This document shows, one piece after another, positions 10,511 through 27,898 of a stretch of DNA of 64,000 nucleotides (position 1 is the first letter of the stretch; the number at the start of each line of letters is the position of its first letter). Origin of the DNA: Betaproteobacteria bacterium (GTDB taxonomy: Bacteria > Pseudomonadota > Gammaproteobacteria > Burkholderiales > SG8-41); assembly GCA_021732605.1 (NCBI GenBank), contig JAKFUS010000042.1:1-64000 (forward strand), written 5' to 3'. The notes under the pieces are model-generated. The model saw nothing but the letters and a program-made list of their open reading frames with translations. It was not told the origin of the DNA and made no database searches. The position numbers and the translations under genes were made by a program.

Positions 10511-11341
10511 ATGCCTGCCATACCCTCACTCACTACCCATGGCTGCACCATGCCGCAAGTCGGTTTCGGCACATCGCAGCTCGGCGACTGCGCCGATCTG
10601 GTCGCCACTGCACTGAAACTCGGCTACCGCCATATCGACACAGCCTGGAAATACGGCTCCGAAAAAGGCGTCGGCGCCGGCATCCACACCTCCGGCGTAC
10701 CACGCAGCGAAATTTTCCTCGTGACCAAGGTATCGCATGAAAATTTGCGCGCCGCCGACTTTGCGCGCTCGGTGGATGAGAGCCTGCGGAACCTGCAGGT
10801 GGATTATGTCGACATGCTGCACGTGCACTGGCCGACCATCGACAAAATCCCGATGGCCGAAACCATGGGCGCGCTGGCCAAAGCGAAACAGCAGGGACTG
10901 ACCCGCCATATCGGCGTCGCCAACTTCAACATCGCGCTGATAGAAGAAGCGCGACGACACTGTCCCGAACCCCTGGCCACGCTGCAGGGTGAATACCATC
11001 CATACCTGGACCAGACCAAAGTACTCGACTATTGCAGGAAGCACGGCATGATCTTCACCGCTTACTGTCCACTCGCCCGCGGCCGCCTGTTCCAGGACCC
11101 CGTGCTGACCGAGATCGCGCAGGCGAGGAGCAAAACCATCGCCCAGGTCGTGTTGCGCTGGATTGTCCAACAAGGCAACATTGCGCCCATCCCGCGCTCG
11201 TCAAATCCGGAGCGCATCGCGCAAAACCTCGATGTTTTCAACTTCACGCTGAGCGACGACGAGATGAAACGCATTCATGCCCTGGCACGGCCTGACGGCC
11301 GCATAGCCAATCCGGCGGGTCGTGCGCCGGCGTGGGATTAA
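10511..11341 (+). CDS. Aldo/keto reductase
   Basis: A 276-residue NAD(P)H-dependent oxidoreductase of the AKR (beta/alpha)8 fold. The catalytic tetrad is visible: Asp and Tyr in HIDTAWKYG, Lys in FLVTKVS, His in LHVHWP. The C-terminal cofactor pocket reads PIPRSSNPERIAQNLDVF. It resembles the 2,5-diketo-gluconate reductase branch by length and motif order, but the substrate is open. It is followed by a Bug gene on the same strand 58 bp later, so a shared transcript is likely. Confidence 0.92.
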   Translation: MPAIPSLTTHGCTMPQVGFGTSQLGDCADLVATALKLGYRHIDTAWKYGSEKGVGAGIHTSGVPRSEIFLVTKVSHENLRAADFARSVDESLRNLQVDYVDMLHVHWPTIDKIPMAETMGALAKAKQQGLTRHIGVANFNIALIEEARRHCPEPLATLQGEYHPYLDQTKVLDYCRKHGMIFTAYCPLARGRLFQDPVLTEIAQARSKTIAQVVLRWIVQQGNIAPIPRSSNPERIAQNLDVFNFTLSDDEMKRIHALARPDGRIANPAGRAPAWD

Positions 11342-11399
11342 GCTTGGGATTAATTTAATGCGGGACTTACACCGCATCAACCAACAACGGAGTGTTCAG

Positions 11400-12386
11400 A
11401 TGAAAAAATCGTCATTCGCCGTTTCGGCCGGCCCTGCTGTAATCACTGCCATATCGCTGCTGGCTACGCCGGCTGCTCTGGCACAAACCACTTTCCCGTC
11501 AAAAAACCTGGTGATGATCGTGCCCTACACCCCAGCCGGCTCCGCCGACGCCATGAGTCGCGCCATTGCCCAGCGGCTGGGCGAAGCCTGGGGACGCAAT
11601 GTCATCGTCGACAACCGTCCGGGCGCAAGCGGCATGATCGGCACTGAAATGGTCACCAAGGCCGAACCCGACGGCCATACGCTGCTCGGCCATACATCGT
11701 CGTATCCCGCCACCGCCGCGGTACGCGCCAAACTGCCGTTTGATCCGGGCAAGTCCATCATCCCCGTGGGCATGACAGCGCGCGCGCCGATGCTGTTCGC
11801 CTTGCATCCTTCGGTTCCGGCAAAAAACATCAAGGAACTGATTGCGATCGCCAAGAAAAATCCGGGCAAGTTCAACTACGGCTCCTCGGGCACCGGCGGC
11901 AACAACCATTTCTCCGGCGCGCTGTTTGCTTCTGCCGCCGGCATCAAAATGGAACACGTGCCGTACAAGGGCATCTCGCTCGCGGTAACCGCGATTGCCT
12001 CCGGCGAAGTCGAAATCGTCATCGCCAGCTCGTCGGCGCTGCTGCCGCAACGGGATTCCGGGCGCATTCGCATACTCGGTGTCACCAGCCTGGAGAAGTC
12101 ACCGTTGTTCCCCGACCTGCCGACCATCGCATCCCAGGGCGTTCCGGGCTACGAATACCAGCTATGGTGGGGCACTTTCGCACCGGCGGGGATGTCAACA
12201 GAGCGGCTGAACTTCATCAACGCGGCGATCAACAAAATCATCGCCAGTGCAGACATGAAGAAATTCCTCGACACGCAGGGCGCCGAAGCCTGGCCGCTGC
12301 CGCTGGCGCAATTGCCGGATCTGCTGCCGAAGGAAATCGCGCGCTACAAGCAGGCCATGCAACTCGCCGGCATCCAGCCGCAGTAA
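11400..12386 (+). CDS. Bug/TctC family tripartite tricarboxylate-type solute-binding protein
   Basis: Periplasmic binding protein of the Bug family, which presents carboxylates or similar small acids to TctAB-type permeases; 328 residues. The signal peptide runs MKKSSFAVS to AALAQ. Family landmarks: VPYTPAGSADAMSR, DNRPGASGMIGTEMV, EPDGHTLLG, MEHVPYKGISLAV, and FPDLPTIASQGVPGY near the C terminus. The ATG at 11400 has GGAG upstream and exposes the signal peptide; earlier starts give an unlikely basic extension. No permease genes lie nearby; it follows an aldo/keto reductase. Confidence 0.93.
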   Translation: MKKSSFAVSAGPAVITAISLLATPAALAQTTFPSKNLVMIVPYTPAGSADAMSRAIAQRLGEAWGRNVIVDNRPGASGMIGTEMVTKAEPDGHTLLGHTSSYPATAAVRAKLPFDPGKSIIPVGMTARAPMLFALHPSVPAKNIKELIAIAKKNPGKFNYGSSGTGGNNHFSGALFASAAGIKMEHVPYKGISLAVTAIASGEVEIVIASSSALLPQRDSGRIRILGVTSLEKSPLFPDLPTIASQGVPGYEYQLWWGTFAPAGMSTERLNFINAAINKIIASADMKKFLDTQGAEAWPLPLAQLPDLLPKEIARYKQAMQLAGIQPQ

Positions 12387-14163: not shown

Positions 14164-15156
14164 TCATTCCAGCGTGATGTTCGCCGCCTTGACCACTTTC
14201 GCCCATTTCGCGATCTCTGCATGCAGCCACACCGCGAACTCCTGCGGCGTATTACCCACCGGCACCCCGCCCTCCATTTCGAAGCGTTTGCGGATGTCCG
14301 GCAGCTTTACAATGGCGACGATTTCGCGATTGAGCAGGCGGATCACCAGTTCCGGGGTGCCGCGTGGCACGAAAATACCCTGCCAGGTGCCCGACTGAAA
14401 TCCCTTCAGTCCCGTTTCGGAGATCGTGGGCAACTCCGGGACCAGCGCCGAACGCTCCAGGCTGGTGACTGCAACACCACGCAACTTGTTGGCGCGCAGA
14501 TGCGACATCACCGAAGGCATGGTGGCGAAAACCACCTGGATCCGCCCCGACAACAGATCGAGGATCGAACCCGAGGCGCCCTTGTACGGGATATGCGTCA
14601 TTTTCGTCTTGGCCATCAGGTTGAACAGTTCGCCAGCCAGATGCGGGCCGCCGCCATTGCCTGACGAGCCGAAGTTCAGTTCACCGGGTTTGGCCTGGGC
14701 GAGCTTGATCAGGTCCTGCACGGTGTTCACCGGCAAAGACGGATTGACCACCAGAATCTGCGATGCCGTGGAGCCCAGCGTGATCGGCGCCAGATCGCGC
14801 TCGGAGTCGTAGGGCAGTTTTTTGTAAATGCTCGGATTGACGCCGAAGGAGCTGCCGACCAGCAGCATCGTATAGCCGTCGGGATTGGCCTTGGCCACCA
14901 TATCGGCAGCCAGCACCCCCCCGCCGCCACCAGAACGATTATCGACCACGAATTGTTGGCCCAGCTGTTTCGCCAATTCGGCAGCCACCATGCGCGCAAC
15001 AAAATCGGCATTGCCGCCCGCGGCCTGCGCAACAATGAAGCGCACGGGGCGATTGGGATAACCGCCGGGCCGCACCTCCGCAGCAAGCAACACGCTGCTC
15101 CATGCAGCAAACAACACCGTAAGCACGCCGAAGCCAAAGTTCCGTTGCGTCACCAT
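14164..15156 (-). CDS. Bug/TctC family solute-binding protein
   Basis: A 330-residue precursor with a signal peptide ending around SVLLAAE. The first ligand loop reads VAQAAGGNADFVAR, lacking the usual PFPPGG proline pattern. It carries a five-glycine run in DNRSGGGGGVLAADMV. The end is the typical KWAKVVKAANI. Its ATG shares one base with the stop of the enoyl-CoA hydratase-like gene (15156), so the two are translationally coupled. That supports a common role in taking up and metabolising one acid. Confidence 0.93.
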   Translation of the reverse strand: MVTQRNFGFGVLTVLFAAWSSVLLAAEVRPGGYPNRPVRFIVAQAAGGNADFVARMVAAELAKQLGQQFVVDNRSGGGGGVLAADMVAKANPDGYTMLLVGSSFGVNPSIYKKLPYDSERDLAPITLGSTASQILVVNPSLPVNTVQDLIKLAQAKPGELNFGSSGNGGGPHLAGELFNLMAKTKMTHIPYKGASGSILDLLSGRIQVVFATMPSVMSHLRANKLRGVAVTSLERSALVPELPTISETGLKGFQSGTWQGIFVPRGTPELVIRLLNREIVAIVKLPDIRKRFEMEGGVPVGNTPQEFAVWLHAEIAKWAKVVKAANITLE

Positions 15157-17201: not shown

Positions 17202-17243
17202 GCGCACCCGGCATCCATGTCACGAAACATTGGAGGAGAAATC

Positions 17244-18224
17244 ATGCATCGCCGCATTTCCGCAATCAACATTTCCGCAATGCTCGGCCTGTGCGCACTG
17301 ATGCTGGCCGGCCATGCCATCGCCCAGCAACAATACCCGAGCCGACCGATCCGGCTGATCGTGCCCTTTCCCGCCGGCGGCAACGTTGACGTGTTCTCCC
17401 GCGTGTTGTTCAAACAGGTCGAAGCCGAACTCGGCGCGACCTTCGTCATCGACAACCGGGGCGGTGCCAACGGCATCGTTGGCGCAGACACCGTCAAGAA
17501 CGCCAACCCCGACGGTTACACCATCATGAATACTTCGTTCGGTTTTGCGGTGAATCCTGCCATCGTCAAAAATCTGCCGTTCGACGTGATTCGCGACTTC
17601 CTGCCGATCACCAATGTCGCGACCGGTCTCGGTTATCTGCTGGTGGTCAACCCCAGGGTGCCGGTAAAAAACGTGTCCGAGATGATCGCACTCGCCAAAA
17701 AAGAGCAGCTGCGCTACAGCACCGCCGGCGTCGGCAACGGCCAGCATCTGGCCGGTGCGCTGCTGGCAAACATGACCAAGACCGACATGCTGCACGTGCC
17801 TTACAAGGGCGGCGGACCGGCGGTCGCCGCCTGCATCAGCGGCGAAGTGCAGGTGCATTTCCCGGCGGGCTCGGTCGGTGTACCACACCATAAGGCCGGT
17901 CGCGTACGCGCCATCGCCTTTACCGGTGCCAAACGCTTGTCCTCCATGCCCGACATTCCGACCGTTGGTGAAACAGTCAACGGCTACGTATCCGACGCCG
18001 GATGGCACGGCGTGTTCGGCCCCGCCAAACTGCCGATGCCTATTGCCATAAAGCTGCAGCAGGCCATACACAAGGCACTCCAGGACCCGAAGATCAACGC
18101 CCATTTTGTCGACAACGGTTACGAACCCAATGGTGATCCGCCGGACGTGTGGGCCAAACAATATCGTGCCGACGTCAAACGCCTGGTTGGAATTGCCAAG
18201 GCGGCAGGCATCGAACCGCAATAA
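17244..18224 (+). CDS. Bug/TctC family solute-binding protein
   Basis: A 326-residue precursor, with GGAGGAG six bases before the ATG and a signal peptide ending HAIAQQ. The first ligand loop is VPFPAGGNVDVFSR; DNRGGANGIVGADTV follows. The segment after the VPYKGGGPA loop departs from the family: ACISGEVQVHFPAGSVGVPHHKAGR, two adjacent histidines where others have a plain hydrophobic stretch. This could alter ligand choice. Three 13-bp repeats stand in front of the gene. It ends before a GC-rich hairpin (18232-18264). Confidence 0.93.
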   Translation: MHRRISAINISAMLGLCALMLAGHAIAQQQYPSRPIRLIVPFPAGGNVDVFSRVLFKQVEAELGATFVIDNRGGANGIVGADTVKNANPDGYTIMNTSFGFAVNPAIVKNLPFDVIRDFLPITNVATGLGYLLVVNPRVPVKNVSEMIALAKKEQLRYSTAGVGNGQHLAGALLANMTKTDMLHVPYKGGGPAVAACISGEVQVHFPAGSVGVPHHKAGRVRAIAFTGAKRLSSMPDIPTVGETVNGYVSDAGWHGVFGPAKLPMPIAIKLQQAIHKALQDPKINAHFVDNGYEPNGDPPDVWAKQYRADVKRLVGIAKAAGIEPQ

Positions 18225-18264: not shown

Positions 18265-18376
18265 CCTGTCCATGACAAGCGGTGAACGGCTCGCATCGTA
18301 ATTGCTCGCCCCGCCAGCAATAGGAATAGAATCACCAGGAACAGGGTTGACCACGATGTTGATTATCGGAGTTCTC

Positions 18377-18910
18377 ATGCGCCTGACCACCAAACGTTTT
18401 AAATTAATGATTGCCGCAAGTGCCTGCCTGCTTGGCGTTACGCTGGTACAACCGGTCGCTGCCGACACTCTGTCGCCGGTCGCACCGCCTGTCCCAATGC
18501 CGGCATTCAAACTGCCGGGCCTCAACGGCACCGTTGGCAGTGACGCGGACCTGCGCAATAAAGTCACGATAATCCGCTTCTGGGCGTCGTGGTGAAGTAC
18601 CTGCGTCAGTGAAATGCCCTCCGTGCAGAGGGCACATAACGAATTGAAAAAAGACGGCATCAACGTCATCACCATTTCAATAGACGGCACCGGCGAGAAT
18701 GCCGTCAAACCGGTCTTCGCCAAGGGTGGCTATACCATGCCCGCGCTTCTCGACCAGAACATGGATGCGGCACGCGGTTTCGGTGCACGCGGCGTGCCCT
18801 TCACCGTGATCGTCGATAAAAAAGGCATGATCAACTCGCGCGGCCTGGGCCACGTTGATTTTGACGGTCAGGTACTGCGCAACTACGCGCGCAATCTTGC
18901 AAAACAATAA
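18377..18910 (+). CDS. TlpA/thioredoxin-like exported protein with in-frame TGA at the CxxC motif: predicted selenoprotein
   Basis: Read through the TGA at 18593-18595 this is a 177-residue protein. A signal peptide (MRLTTKRFKLMIAASACLLG to VAA) is followed by a TlpA-type domain: FKLPGLNGTVG, then FWASW-U-STC-VSEMP, where U is the TGA. The thioredoxin motif CxxC thus becomes Sec73-Ser-Thr-Cys76. The frame stays open behind it for 105 codons with family features: ISIDGTGENAVKPVF and the cis-proline loop GARGVPFTVIVDKKG. GGAG stands five bases before the ATG at 18377. A perfect hairpin with an apical GT follows the TGA at 18615-18634. Read as stops, these bases would destroy two conserved families at their catalytic Cys (see the next gene), so selenocysteine is the better explanation. 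It needs SelA/SelB/SelC elsewhere in the genome. The alternative is a pseudogene. Confidence 0.85.
18615..18634 (+). promoter_or_regulatory. Candidate bacterial SECIS hairpin of the TlpA-like gene
   Basis: TGCCCTC (18615-18621) and GAGGGCA (18628-18634) form a perfect 7-bp stem with the six-base loop CGTGCA. The first G of the loop is 28 nt after the TGA. Bacterial SECIS elements are SelB-binding hairpins just downstream of the UGA with a conserved G in the apical loop, typically about 16-37 nt away. This one fits in distance, loop and position within the coding sequence. Confidence 0.65.
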
Positions 18911-18936
18911 TTTCCCACCACCACCGGAGGTGTCGC

Positions 18937-19518
18937 ATGTTAAGGATGTCGTTACTGCAACGCTGTATCGCAATCGGGTTACTGGGAAGCGCAACGCTGC
19001 TCGCCGGGACCGCGCAAGCGCAAACGCAAGCGCTGAAAGTCGGCGACAAGGCGCCCGCCTTTTCGGTGATTTCCTCCACCGGAAAATCAGTGGCGCTGGC
19101 CGATTACCTCGGCAAGAAGAACGTAGTGCTGTTCTTCTACATTGGCGCCTTCACCGACACCTGAACGACCGAAGTCGTGGCCTTCCAGCTTGATCTCCCC
19201 AAGTTCGAAGCCACCAATGCTCAGGTCCCGGGCATCAGTGTCGATTTCAATGCCGCCAACACGGTATTTGCCGAAAAACTCGGCCTGAAGTTTCCGTTGC
19301 TGAGCGATACGCGCCGCGTCATGTCCCGCGATTACGGCGTGCTCAACGACAATCCAGCGATGGCCAACGACGCCAAACGCATCGCCGGCTATCTGCGTGC
19401 GAAGCGCTCGTGGTTCATCATCGATAAGGAAGGCATCATTCGCTACGCCAAGATCGAAGACCCGCGCGGCATCATGCCCAATGACGAGTTACTGGAAGCC
19501 TTGGAGAAACTGCGTTAA
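18937..19518 (+). CDS. Peroxiredoxin-like (AhpC/TSA) exported protein with in-frame TGA at the peroxidatic Cys: predicted selenoprotein
   Basis: Read through TGA at 19162-19164 this is 193 residues. It has a signal peptide (MLRMSLLQRCIAIGLLGS to AQAQ), then KVGDKAPAFSVISSTGK and LFFYIGAFTDT-U-TTEVVAF. Peroxiredoxins have TxxC at this spot; here Thr-Asp-Thr-Sec76. The frame continues for 117 codons with peroxiredoxin features: GISVDFNAANTVFAEKLG, FPLLSDTRRVMSRDYGVL, and RSWFIIDKEGIIRYA. After signal cleavage the protein has no cysteine, so Sec would be its only redox residue and an outside reductant is needed. GGAGG lies six bases before the ATG, 26 bp after the TlpA-like gene; the pair is clearly one operon. 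A pseudogene is the alternative, but loss at the same codon type and catalytic site in both neighbours is unlikely. Confidence 0.85.
19177..19214 (+). promoter_or_regulatory. Candidate SECIS hairpin of the peroxiredoxin-like gene
   Basis: An extended imperfect hairpin: GTGG and CTTC (19177-19185, one bulged C) pair with GAAG and CCAC (19207-19214). An inner stem, GCTT/AAGT with a G-T wobble, closes a loop that begins with G19192. That G is 28 nt after the TGA, the same distance as in the gene before. The stem is less perfect than the first, so this is a candidate only. Confidence 0.4.
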
Positions 19519-19569: not shown

Positions 19570-20535
19570 TTAATCCAGTTTCAGATTGAGTTTTTTCAGG
19601 ATTTTTTCGTTGCGCTGCATCTCGTTGCGGATGTAGGCATCGTAATCGGCAGGCGTCATGGTGCCCTCCGAGAAGCCTTGCTTGGCCAGGATCGCACCCG
19701 CCTCCGGCGCCTTCAGCGCTTTGGCGACTTCCGCCGACAGGCGCTCCACGATGGGCCGCGGCGTACCGGCACGGATCATGATGCCGAACCAGTTCAATGA
19801 TTCAAACCCCGGCCAGCCTGATTCGGCAATGGTCGGAACATCAGGCAGATTCGACGCGCGCTGCGCCGACGTCACCGCAATCCCGCGCAGGCGTCCGGTA
19901 GGAATGTACTGGGAACAATCTAGTACATTGCCGACCAGCAGCGTGATATGGCCGCCGAGAATCGCTGTCGTCGCAGGTGCCCCGCCGCCAAACGGCACAT
20001 TGACGATGTCGATCTTGGCAAGATCCTTGAACAGTTCACCGGCAATCCGCCCCCCGCCGATGATGCTCGATACGCCCCATGTCAACTGGCCGGGTCGGGC
20101 CTTCGCCAGCGCCACCAGCTCTTTCATGTTTTTCACCGGCAGTGACGGATGCGCACAGTAGATCAGCGGGTTGTAAACCATCCGCGTCACACCGTGGAAA
20201 TCACGCAGCGTGTCGTATGGCAATTTGTTGTAAGCGAACGGATTCACGGTGAAGCTCGTCGCCATCACCAGCATGGTGTAGCCGTCGGCCGGCGCACGCA
20301 CCGCGACTTCCGTGGCAATCACCGTGTTGGCGCCAGGCCGGTTTTCGATCACCAGGTTCTGGCCCAGTGCCTTGGACATCGGTGGCGCGATCAGCCTCGC
20401 CATGGTGTCGGCAGCACCCCCCGGCGGAAACGGCACGATCATCCGGATCGACCGCGTTGGATAGTCCTGCGCAACAACCTGCAACGACAACAGTGCGGCC
20501 ACGGCAAACAGCAGCTTCGGCAATACCTGCGTCAT
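19570..20535 (-). CDS. Bug/TctC family solute-binding protein
   Basis: A 321-residue precursor with signal peptide MTQVLPKLLFAVAALLSLQVVAQ. Ligand loops are the standard VPFPPGGAADTMAR and IENRPGANTVIATEVA. The middle loop carries a hydrophobic variant, IVNVPFGGGAPATTAIL, where most members have HVPYKGG. The C-terminal part reads GWPGFESLNWFGIMIRAGTP. It is convergent with the selenoprotein operon. Upstream lies an AT-rich stretch (20645-20685), possibly its promoter region. Confidence 0.93.
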   Translation of the reverse strand: MTQVLPKLLFAVAALLSLQVVAQDYPTRSIRMIVPFPPGGAADTMARLIAPPMSKALGQNLVIENRPGANTVIATEVAVRAPADGYTMLVMATSFTVNPFAYNKLPYDTLRDFHGVTRMVYNPLIYCAHPSLPVKNMKELVALAKARPGQLTWGVSSIIGGGRIAGELFKDLAKIDIVNVPFGGGAPATTAILGGHITLLVGNVLDCSQYIPTGRLRGIAVTSAQRASNLPDVPTIAESGWPGFESLNWFGIMIRAGTPRPIVERLSAEVAKALKAPEAGAILAKQGFSEGTMTPADYDAYIRNEMQRNEKILKKLNLKLD

Positions 20536-23259: not shown

Positions 23260-24246
23260 TCACTCCATGCTGATGTTCAGCGGTTTCGCCACCTTCAGCC
23301 ATTTCGCAATATCGCTGTCGATCAGCTTGCCGAACTCTGCCGGGGATACCTCCGCGGCTTCGACACCGACGCCTAGCAGACGCTCCTTGATTTCCGGCTG
23401 GCGCAGCGCGTACTGGATTGCGCCATGCAGGCGCTCGATCACCGCTTTCGGTGTGCCCTTGGGCGCAACCACTCCGTACCAGCCGCTGACCGCATAACCG
23501 GGCAGACCGGATTCGGCGATGGTCGGCACATTGGGCAAGGCCGGCGTGCGTTTCGGCGTCGTCACCCCCAGCCCCCTGATCTTGCCCGACTGCAGGTGCG
23601 GCCGCGCCACCGCCACCGTCGAGAAAAACACGCTGACCCTGCCGCCCAGCAAATCGGTCATGGCCGGATTGCCGCCTTTATACGGCACATGCAGCATCTT
23701 GATACCAGCCAGCGAGTTGAACAGTTCCGCGGCCAGGTGCGTCAGGTTGCCGGTGCTCGAAGACGCATAGGTCACCTGCCCGGGTTTGGATTTCGCCAGC
23801 GCAATCAGTTCGGCGCTGGATGACACGCCAGCCGCGGGATGCGCAACAAACACATAGGCGCCGTCACCGAACAGCGAAACCGGCACAAAATCGCGCGCGG
23901 TATCGTAAGGCAACCTGGGATACAGCGCGGGATTGATGGCGTGTCCCGCAGCGACCACCAGCAGCGTGTAACCGTCGGGCGCCGAACGGGCCACGATTTC
24001 AGATCCGATCAGCGTGTTGCCGCCGCCGCGGTTGTCGATGATCACACTCTGCCCCAATTGCTGGATCAGCAGCGGTGACAGCAGACGCGCCACAATGTCA
24101 TTGGCACCGCCGGCTGGATACGGCACAACCATGCGCACCGGGCGCGTCGGATAGGACTGGGCTTGAGCCGGCACGGCGGCAACGATGGCTACAGCCGCCA
24201 GCAGCACGCGCATAAAACAGGCGCAACGATGAATCAGTTTCTGCAT
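23260..24246 (-). CDS. Bug/TctC family solute-binding protein
   Basis: A 328-residue precursor with signal peptide ending VAAVPAQAQ. Ligand loops are VPYPAGGANDIVAR, DNRGGGNTLIGSEIV and MLHVPYKGGNPAMTDLLGG. AGGAA precedes the ATG at 24246. It follows an ABC-type binding-protein homologue on the same strand 158 bp upstream, but the two belong to unrelated families. The 158-bp gap shows no clear element. Confidence 0.93.
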   Translation of the reverse strand: MQKLIHRCACFMRVLLAAVAIVAAVPAQAQSYPTRPVRMVVPYPAGGANDIVARLLSPLLIQQLGQSVIIDNRGGGNTLIGSEIVARSAPDGYTLLVVAAGHAINPALYPRLPYDTARDFVPVSLFGDGAYVFVAHPAAGVSSSAELIALAKSKPGQVTYASSSTGNLTHLAAELFNSLAGIKMLHVPYKGGNPAMTDLLGGRVSVFFSTVAVARPHLQSGKIRGLGVTTPKRTPALPNVPTIAESGLPGYAVSGWYGVVAPKGTPKAVIERLHGAIQYALRQPEIKERLLGVGVEAAEVSPAEFGKLIDSDIAKWLKVAKPLNISME

Positions 24247-26678: not shown

Positions 26679-27662
26679 TTATTCCGGCTTTAAACCCGCG
26701 GCTTTAACCACCTTGGCCCACTTCGCCATGTCGTTACGGATGCCGGCGGCGAATTCCTCGGGCGTGTTGCCCACCGGGTCGGCGCCGCTGGCCTGAAAGC
26801 GCTCCTTCACCGTGGCATCCTGCAACGCAAAGACCACGCCCTTGTGCAGCTTGGCGACGACATCGCGGGGCGTGCCGCCGGGCGCCATCAATCCGTACCA
26901 CTGCACGGCTTCGTATTCGGGGACACCCTGCTCGGCAATGGTTGGGATGTCAGGGGCAGCGTTGGAGCGCCTGGCACTGGTCACGCCATAAGCGCGCAGC
27001 CGGCCGGCTTTGACCTGCTGCGTACCGGTGATCATGTTGGTGACCATGAACGGCACATAACCGGCCACCAGATCGGCAATCGCCTGATTGGCGCTCTTGT
27101 AAGGCACATGCACCATCTTCAACCCCGCCATGCTGAGGAACATCTCCATGCACAAATGCAGATTGCTGCCAGTACCAGCCGAGCCAAACTCCAGCTTGCC
27201 CGGACGGGATTTCGAAAACGCGATCAGCTCTTTGATGTTTTTCGGCTGCATTGACGGATGGGCCACCAGCACATTGGGCAGGATCACGAGCTGGCTGACC
27301 GGCGCGAAATCCTTGACCACATCGAATGGCATGTTCTTCTGCATCGAAGGCTGGATGGTAATGCTGCTGACGCCAGCGAGCAGGGTGTAGCCGTCGGGCG
27401 CCGCGCGCGCGACGGCTTCGCTGCCGATCAGCGATCCGGCCCCTGGACGGTTTTCGACGAGGACCCGCTGGCCGAGAAACTCATCAAGCTTGGGCGCAAC
27501 CAGACGTGCCGTGGAGTCGGTGCCACCGCCGGCCCCGGAAGGCACGATAATCCGGATCGAACGTACTGGATAATTCTGTTGCGCCGCAACGCCCAGCGCT
27601 ATTCCGAACAGTGAAATGCCCATCAGGCTGCAGACCATCCGGATTTGATAACTAGCTGACAT
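26679..27662 (-). CDS. Bug/TctC family solute-binding protein
   Basis: A 327-residue precursor. AGGAG lies seven bases before the ATG at 27662, and the signal peptide ends near LGVAAQQ. The first loop is serine-containing, VPSGAGGGTDSTAR, in place of the usual proline-rich form; ENRPGAGSLIGSEAV follows. Gene order (hydrolase convergent, metallo-beta-lactamase-fold gene divergent) gives no substrate hint. Confidence 0.93.
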   Translation of the reverse strand: MSASYQIRMVCSLMGISLFGIALGVAAQQNYPVRSIRIIVPSGAGGGTDSTARLVAPKLDEFLGQRVLVENRPGAGSLIGSEAVARAAPDGYTLLAGVSSITIQPSMQKNMPFDVVKDFAPVSQLVILPNVLVAHPSMQPKNIKELIAFSKSRPGKLEFGSAGTGSNLHLCMEMFLSMAGLKMVHVPYKSANQAIADLVAGYVPFMVTNMITGTQQVKAGRLRAYGVTSARRSNAAPDIPTIAEQGVPEYEAVQWYGLMAPGGTPRDVVAKLHKGVVFALQDATVKERFQASGADPVGNTPEEFAAGIRNDMAKWAKVVKAAGLKPE

Positions 27663-27898
27663 TCTGATCTCCTCAGATATCCGGTTCATGGCCCGGATGT
27701 TTATTGAATAGTGTGATGATTCTGGCGGCACCCCTCACTGTTGTAAAGCCGCACGGCGCCAAGAAACACCATCCTCAGGGCAGTTATTCCGCCAGTCCGG
27801 CAAAAATTTCCCGCAACATTCACGACATGTTCTGCGGGCATAATGACCGTTGATGCAGCAGGGGGAGGCCCGGCTGCAAACACTCCGGAGGTACAACC

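Follow-up and report, generated by a model that had tools for sequence, protein, structure and literature searches.

Adjacent TlpA-like and peroxiredoxin genes with in-frame TGA codons in a betaproteobacterial genome: a probable selenoprotein pair

The window, i.e., the whole stretch of 64,000 nucleotides analyzed here (assembly GCA_021732605.1, contig JAKFUS010000042.1, Betaproteobacteria bacterium), contains two neighboring genes that are each crossed by a single in-frame TGA codon (Table 1). The first gene encodes a TlpA/ResA-like protein. The initial annotation had placed its TGA at the first active-site Cys of a TlpA-like protein whose frame stays open on both sides, and this was confirmed: read with selenocysteine (Sec) at position 73, the product carries the motif RFWASW-U-STC, and its Pfam matches to AhpC-TSA (PF00578, 2.4e-19, residues 40-153) and Redoxin (PF08534, 1e-18, residues 40-159), both over the cut-off, span the TGA. 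It had also been foreseen that conventional annotation would split the gene, and the mechanical ORF list does break it into 18302-18595 and 18614-18910. The best PDB match of the read-through product is the thioredoxin-family chain 3kcm_A (7.6e-25), and a structure search with its AlphaFold model, which is good in the mature part (mean pLDDT of 90.0), returned 3kcm, ResA, and TlpA as the nearest solved folds. The protein thus has the domain (Redoxin/AhpC-TSA), the CxxC-type site (here UxxC), and the fold match of a TlpA. Sec73, Cys76, and Pro141, presumably the cis-Pro, are invariant in an alignment of 26 of the 41 close family members described below. Beyond the presumed signal peptide, Cys76 is the sole Cys; the signal peptides of this and the following protein were assigned by eye.

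Table 1. Features of the two-gene locus in the window.
Feature	Position	Strand	Remarks
TlpA/ResA-like thioredoxin-fold selenoprotein (predicted), presumably exported	18377..18910	+	177 aa with Sec73; UxxC active site
Alternative start of the TlpA gene	in-frame ATG at 18356	+	
TGA of the TlpA gene, very probably decoded as selenocysteine; first position of UxxC	18593..18595	+	one TGA in 41/41 close family matches
SECIS-like hairpin, TlpA gene	18615..18634	+	7 bp stem UGCCCUC/GAGGGCA, 6-nt loop CGUGCA
GGAGGT, ribosome-binding-site-like, ahead of the peroxiredoxin gene	18926..18931	+	sequence reading
Peroxiredoxin selenoprotein (predicted), presumably exported	18937..19518	+	193 aa with Sec76; active-site Pro replaced by Ile
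TGA, apparently read as selenocysteine; peroxidatic position (AFTDT-U-T)	19162..19164	+	one TGA in 51/52 family matches
Candidate SECIS hairpin, peroxiredoxin gene	19180..19212	+	folding

The second gene, which the initial annotation had missed and with it the two-selenoprotein unit, lies 26 bases behind the TAA of the TlpA gene and encodes a peroxiredoxin (Prx). It stood fifth in the top-15 list of a window scan for TGA-bridged frames, from which the TlpA gene was absent; by eye, no other frame in this list resembled a known active site. With its single TGA read as Sec, the product matches AhpC-TSA (PF00578, 3.5e-32, Pfam) and shows the motif FYIGAFTDT-U-TTE. When aligned to 2ywn, the peroxidatic Cys, the Thr three residues earlier, and the distal Arg all match up. 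None of Thr73, Sec76, and Arg157 varies in the pair-type Prx alignment (26 of 42 sequences aligned), and among the matches listed the Sec rows of the Prx profile have the Thr in 90 of 91 and the Arg in 89 of 91 cases. The protein encoded at 18937-19518 therefore combines the AhpC-TSA domain with the peroxidatic residue, Thr, and Arg of a peroxiredoxin. Its AlphaFold model is likewise good in the mature part (mean pLDDT of 86.7), and the nearest solved folds are those of the 1-Cys Prx AhpE and of Bcp4, the top four having TMt values of 0.90-0.93. Its only Cys, Cys10, falls inside the presumed signal peptide, which leaves the mature chain without a resolving Cys, as in 1-Cys (here 1-Sec) peroxiredoxins. 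Most pair-type Prx proteins (37 of 42) have no Cys at all and the window's and four others have one; L110 is the only one with a Cys near Sec, four residues after it.

A family search with the TlpA protein over 74 genomes, run to E<=1e-15, yielded 79 matches. Of these, the top 41 (E<=3.9e-27; 35-99% identity), which come from 40 genomes, contain a single TGA apiece; further stops, for which a check of the close relatives had been proposed, do not occur inside them, and RFWA[ST]W-U-xx-C was read in all 41 loci. The remaining 38 matches (E>=1.2e-22, at most 35% identity) are free of stops. The expectation that most homologs would have Cys and some Sec at this column therefore holds for the distant relatives and fails for the near clade, in which all 41 have TGA. 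An in-frame UGA at a redox residue, with Cys in distant homologs, is the pattern of a bacterial selenoprotein, and the TGA of the TlpA gene is very probably read as Sec, as had been suggested. The corresponding Prx search gave 52 matches, 51 with one TGA and one with none; U occupies the active-site position in all 51, of which 48 were recognized by motif and three (L085, L092, and L093) by eye. Since its distant homologs have Cys, this gene shows the same pattern and looks like a second selenium-dependent gene.

The two genes are also kept together. Of the 41 TlpA loci, 40 have the Prx gene next on the same strand, with 539-612 nt from TGA to TGA; in the exception (L114), the TlpA gene stops 187 bases short of where its contig ends, and the Prx found in this genome sits at the end of another contig. 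Two Sec-TlpA/Sec-Prx pairs occur in one genome, G043 (L084 and L111, on G043:C27 and G043:C114). When 670 ORFs around the pair were clustered, the widest clusters were reading frames overlapping the pair itself; beyond it, only receptor-like genes, of which these genomes have many, extended to three or four groups, and the flanking genes mostly vary between genera. No further conserved neighbor, such as a DsbD adjoining the pair, was seen in the ORF clusters or in six loci inspected by eye. In the window, the pair is flanked by genes that we take to be tripartite-tricarboxylate receptors (11322-12386, 14164-15156, 17217-18224, 19570-20535, 23260-24246, and 26679-27731), and a cluster of such receptor-like ORFs was seen again in three genus groups and at one additional locus. 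No TGA-TlpA was found in 34 of the 74 family genomes, some of which are incomplete drafts, so the pair appears to be dispensable for some Sec-decoding genomes.

Because SelB scores over the cut-off in 66 of the 74 family genomes, the family gives almost no contrast for an association between SelB and the pair, and an order-level sample of 160 genomes, each at least 90% complete, was used instead. The Prx (E<=1e-40) was detected in eight of them, each time with one TGA, and all eight are within the 45 genomes that have SelB; they are not independent, since five are from the window's family and three from one other genus. A scan of named contigs with the Prx alignment was carried out with the patterns FQLDLP[KQ]F and [AT]QVLG[VI]SVD. 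In the best 80 of 550 confirmed relatives, a Sec-TlpA (WUxxC) adjoins the Sec-Prx in 34 loci, which do not add to the 40 above because many are the same contigs (L134, for example, is G015:C34). Among these 34 loci from the best 80 of 550, 23 are titled Betaproteobacteria, Burkholderiales, or Burkholderiaceae, seven Bordetella parapertussis, one Chitinophaga pinensis, and one Proteobacteria, the Bordetella and Chitinophaga entries being environmental bins whose names are given as titled. The other two of the 34 are a Candidatus Entotheonella chromosome (4.3 Mb, L161) and a Methylomirabilota bin, in which the gene order is reversed (L199).

The capacity to decode UGA is encoded in the window's genome (3.48 Mb, a draft of 75 contigs, 96.5% complete). 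The check for selA, selB, selC, and selD that had been recommended found all four: SelA (C44:10223-11329, 5.9e-158), SelB (C44:11429-13312, 9.4e-127), and a tRNA-Sec with anticodon TCA (C44:15602-15692, 75.9 bits against an Rfam cut-off of 47) lie on one contig, and SelD (2.7e-126) on another (L011, G000:C6:88961-89887). The SelD gene has one internal TGA of its own, in the context GGTGGG-TGA-GGCTGC on the reverse strand, and the Sec machinery of this genome thus appears to depend itself on a selenoprotein. A Sec-type formate dehydrogenase was considered as the reason for keeping the sel genes and was rejected: the only Fdh-alpha match over the cut-off (C21, model positions 2-672) is stop-free, and none of the five molybdopterin-domain matches of the genome has an internal stop.

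Bacterial SECIS elements, as described in the accessible part of a 2026 inventory, have a loop of 3-9 nt with G in one of its first two positions, a stem of 4-16 bp, a distance of 16-37 nt from the UGA, and a minimum free energy of -7.5 or lower (PMC13188914). The hairpin behind the TGA of the TlpA gene fits this model: its stem begins 19 nt and its loop 26 nt past the UGA, G is second in the loop, and the energy is -14.2 kcal/mol over the 54-nt stretch, or -12.3 for the centroid with the hairpin alone. Across 41 sequences (38 distinct), 97.7% of 266 cells are paired and the loop is invariant in the aligned sequences. Double changes occur in three of the seven pairs, one of them in 15 rows (C-G to U-A) and two in single rows; on four of five covariation measures none of 500 shuffles scored as high, and on the fifth 10 of 500 did, although related sequences may exceed such shuffles without any structure. 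The codons are constrained as well, Ser at +9 being TCC in 40 of 40 cases and GTG at +10 and CAG at +11 being found in 41 of 41, and codon entropy is 0.56 in the seven hairpin codons vs. 1.10 in 26 codons elsewhere (p 0.010). The folding energy itself is unexceptional (z -1.66; 14 of 200 shuffles fold as well). The candidate hairpin of the Prx gene fits the model less clearly. It is stable (-17.7 kcal/mol, z -3.84, one of 200 shuffles as good) and its spacing is within the SECIS rules, but G takes the first loop position only when the closing pair G31-C39 is opened. Among 42 sequences (35 distinct) 97.1% of the cells are paired, with mostly one-sided G-U changes; double changes occur in one of 11 pairs, a level equaled by 406 of 500 shuffles, and the codon entropy (0.76 in the hairpin vs. 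1.02 elsewhere, p 0.10) is not clearly lower.

Based on these data, we consider it probable that the locus is a two-gene operon for two exported selenoproteins, whose UGAs would be decoded by the genome's own SelA, SelB, tRNA-Sec, and SelD, and that the Sec-Prx is recharged by the Sec-TlpA, with DsbD as the most likely source of electrons. The Sec of the Prx would reduce peroxide and be converted to a selenenic acid (Prx-SeOH). Because the mature Prx has no Cys that could resolve this selenenic acid, an outside partner would be needed. The neighboring UxxC TlpA, presumed to share the compartment, would attack the oxidized Prx with its selenolate, its Cys would then resolve the intermediate to leave a selenenylsulfide within TlpA, and TlpA would be re-reduced from the cytoplasm. 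The genome has one DsbD_TM match (4.1e-98, in an open frame of 706 aa), on a different contig from the pair, and this DsbD would most likely be the route. For one selenoprotein reducing another there is a precedent in other protein families: a selenoprotein glutaredoxin reportedly serves a selenoprotein MsrA, to judge by the title of the 2011 work of Kim et al. The pair may thus constitute a small, exported, selenium-powered unit for peroxide removal in many uncultured bacteria, and what a plain ORF list fragments would be two linked genes of an apparently selenium-dependent peroxide defense.

It is also conceivable, but unlikely, that both proteins are selenoproteins while TlpA is not the reductant of the Prx, acting instead on some other periplasmic client, and that nothing but co-regulation under oxidative stress links the two genes. 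Cys-type TlpA/ResA/CcmG relatives act on clients in cytochrome maturation, copper insertion, and disulfide repair, which are the candidate alternatives here, and the fold matches of the TlpA model include 4txv and 4txo, complexes of TlpA with a cytochrome oxidase subunit and with ScoI. Against this, the Prx of the window has no resolving Cys, and the two genes have stayed together while most of the genes around them change from genus to genus. Moreover, a Sec-Prx is found beside a Cys-type TlpA elsewhere, with the Prx first in six family loci (L086-L091), opposite to the order in the window, and with TlpA first, among the matches listed, in a deltaproteobacterial (L168) and a Rokuibacteriota (L169) contig. 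The link therefore outlives both changes of gene order and the change from Sec to Cys.

Readings that dispense with Sec fare far worse. In-frame starts are available after each TGA (ATG at 18614 and GTG at 19177), so pseudogenes, or genes split by true stops with restarted downstream halves, were considered; this is very improbable, given that TGA recurs in register at the catalytic position (41 of 41 TlpA and 51 of 52 Prx matches), that the genome has the full Sec machinery, and that both sides of each TGA are under purifying selection. Compared with close relatives (14 of the same genus and one of another, with the first 30 residues omitted), dN/dS for TlpA is 0.07-0.28 before and 0.09-0.23 after the TGA (15 of the 40 other sequences), and for the Prx it is 0.02-0.25 and 0.05-0.21, respectively (15 of the 41 others). 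Least credible of all is that the TGA arose through faulty sequencing or assembly, or that the genetic code is reassigned: the window does come from a draft of 75 contigs, but the identical TGA recurs in 40 genomes, tRNA-Sec and SelB are present, and TGA serves as an ordinary stop that closes five of the 17 long mechanical ORFs between 8000 and 30000. We accordingly rejected all of these readings.

Selenoproteins of both general kinds have been cataloged before. The 2026 inventory, in its accessible part, lists TxxU peroxiredoxins, UxxC thiol-disulfide isomerase-like proteins, and a UGC-type TlpA, and names operons in which selenoprotein genes, including those of redox proteins, stand side by side as they do here (Prx with a SELENOW-like protein, a Prx-like with an AhpD-like protein, SAO, Tso, and others); a TlpA-like and Prx pair is not among the operons named there (PMC13188914). 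The Sargasso Sea survey of 2005 also records both domain kinds (PMC1088965). To judge by name and motif, its thiol-disulfide isomerase-like selenoprotein (cd02966, UxxC) is of the same kind as the window's TlpA (PMC1088965; PMC13188914); it comprised four sequences in 2005 with widespread Cys homologs, whereas every member of the window's near clade has TGA and the gene is coupled to that of a Sec-peroxiredoxin, and the word operon does not occur in the main text of that survey as far as it was available (PMC1088965). Trx-like 1 (COG0526) of the Global Ocean Sampling study of 2008 likewise denotes thiol-disulfide isomerase/thioredoxin selenoproteins, normally UxxC, and the accessible text of that study contains neither operon nor TlpA (PMC2398784).

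At the level of protein families, PrxU of Eubacterium acidaminophilum (NF040737), as far as its available description goes, shares with the window's Prx the AhpC-TSA domain, a peroxidatic Sec, and the Thr three residues before it (TxxU). The window's Prx reaches 52.3 bits against this model, below the cut-off of 270, and differs from PrxU in having Ile for Pro, in its presumed export, and in a mature part that contains no Cys. NF041054 (WAxxUGC_long) is, by its name, a ResA-like protein with an active-site Sec; the window's TlpA reaches 68.1 bits, below the cut-off of 300, and is a UxxC protein of 177 aa, whereas the model has 354 positions and, by name, a UGC spacing. In NCBIfam, 11 and 13 models are listed for the two proteins at E<=0.001, and neither protein scores over the cut-off of any of them. 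Known selenoproteins include TxxU peroxiredoxins and UxxC thiol-disulfide isomerase-like proteins; a TlpA-Prx selenoprotein pair and a Pro-less Sec-Prx are unreported in the literature searched, which had most subscription journals and preprints outside its reach.

The leading Pro of the peroxiredoxin motif PxxxTxxC/U is described as highly conserved, in Sec forms as well, in the accessible part of the inventory (PMC13188914). The window's Prx departs from this motif with Ile in place of Pro. The Prx-profile alignment holds 118 different rows among the matches listed, which represent proteins resembling the window's Prx, not all peroxiredoxins; four of the 27 Cys rows, in which the Prx profile had picked up TlpA domains, were left out, and in two Cys rows (L196 and L208) and two Sec rows (L092 and L093) the Pro lies one column off and was scored as present after the letters were read. 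Among these matches, all 23 Cys rows have the Pro and 83 of the 91 Sec rows lack it, mostly with Ile (51) or Val (30) in its place. The scan patterns lie away from the Pro site and do not directly select for it. In a tree of 110 rows, 80 Pro-less Sec rows fall into two supported groups (55 and 25) with two changes as the minimum; the tree was quickly made, its branches are long and its root has weak support, and a single origin of the Pro-less Sec rows may also be compatible with it.

We give about an even chance to a broader proposal, namely that a two-selenium relay outside the cytoplasm constitutes a unit shared by Betaproteobacteria, Entotheonella, and Methylomirabilota, and that the uptake of Sec went along with the loss of Pro, with the result that no near Cys version turned up and that the ability to function with Cys may have been lost. 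Every Pro-less row among the matches listed is a Sec row, which makes this lineage a natural experiment on the retention of selenium, and raises the questions of whether Sec makes the Pro unnecessary and whether a Cys version fails without it.

Other arrangements of Sec-Prx were observed on the side. Among the matches listed, six (L183, L191, L198, L203, L207, and L210) form a set of Sec-Prx that retains the Pro, with the motif YPL[AD]WTPVU, and the Prx of the six family loci in which it precedes a Cys-type TlpA is a third Sec-Prx type, with the motif YVLDFTPTUI. In seven further loci among the matches listed (L171, L172, L176, L177, L179, L184, and L190), at which a TlpA partner was not seen, two Prx genes with one TGA each lie near one another, on contigs titled Acidobacteria or Terriglobia.
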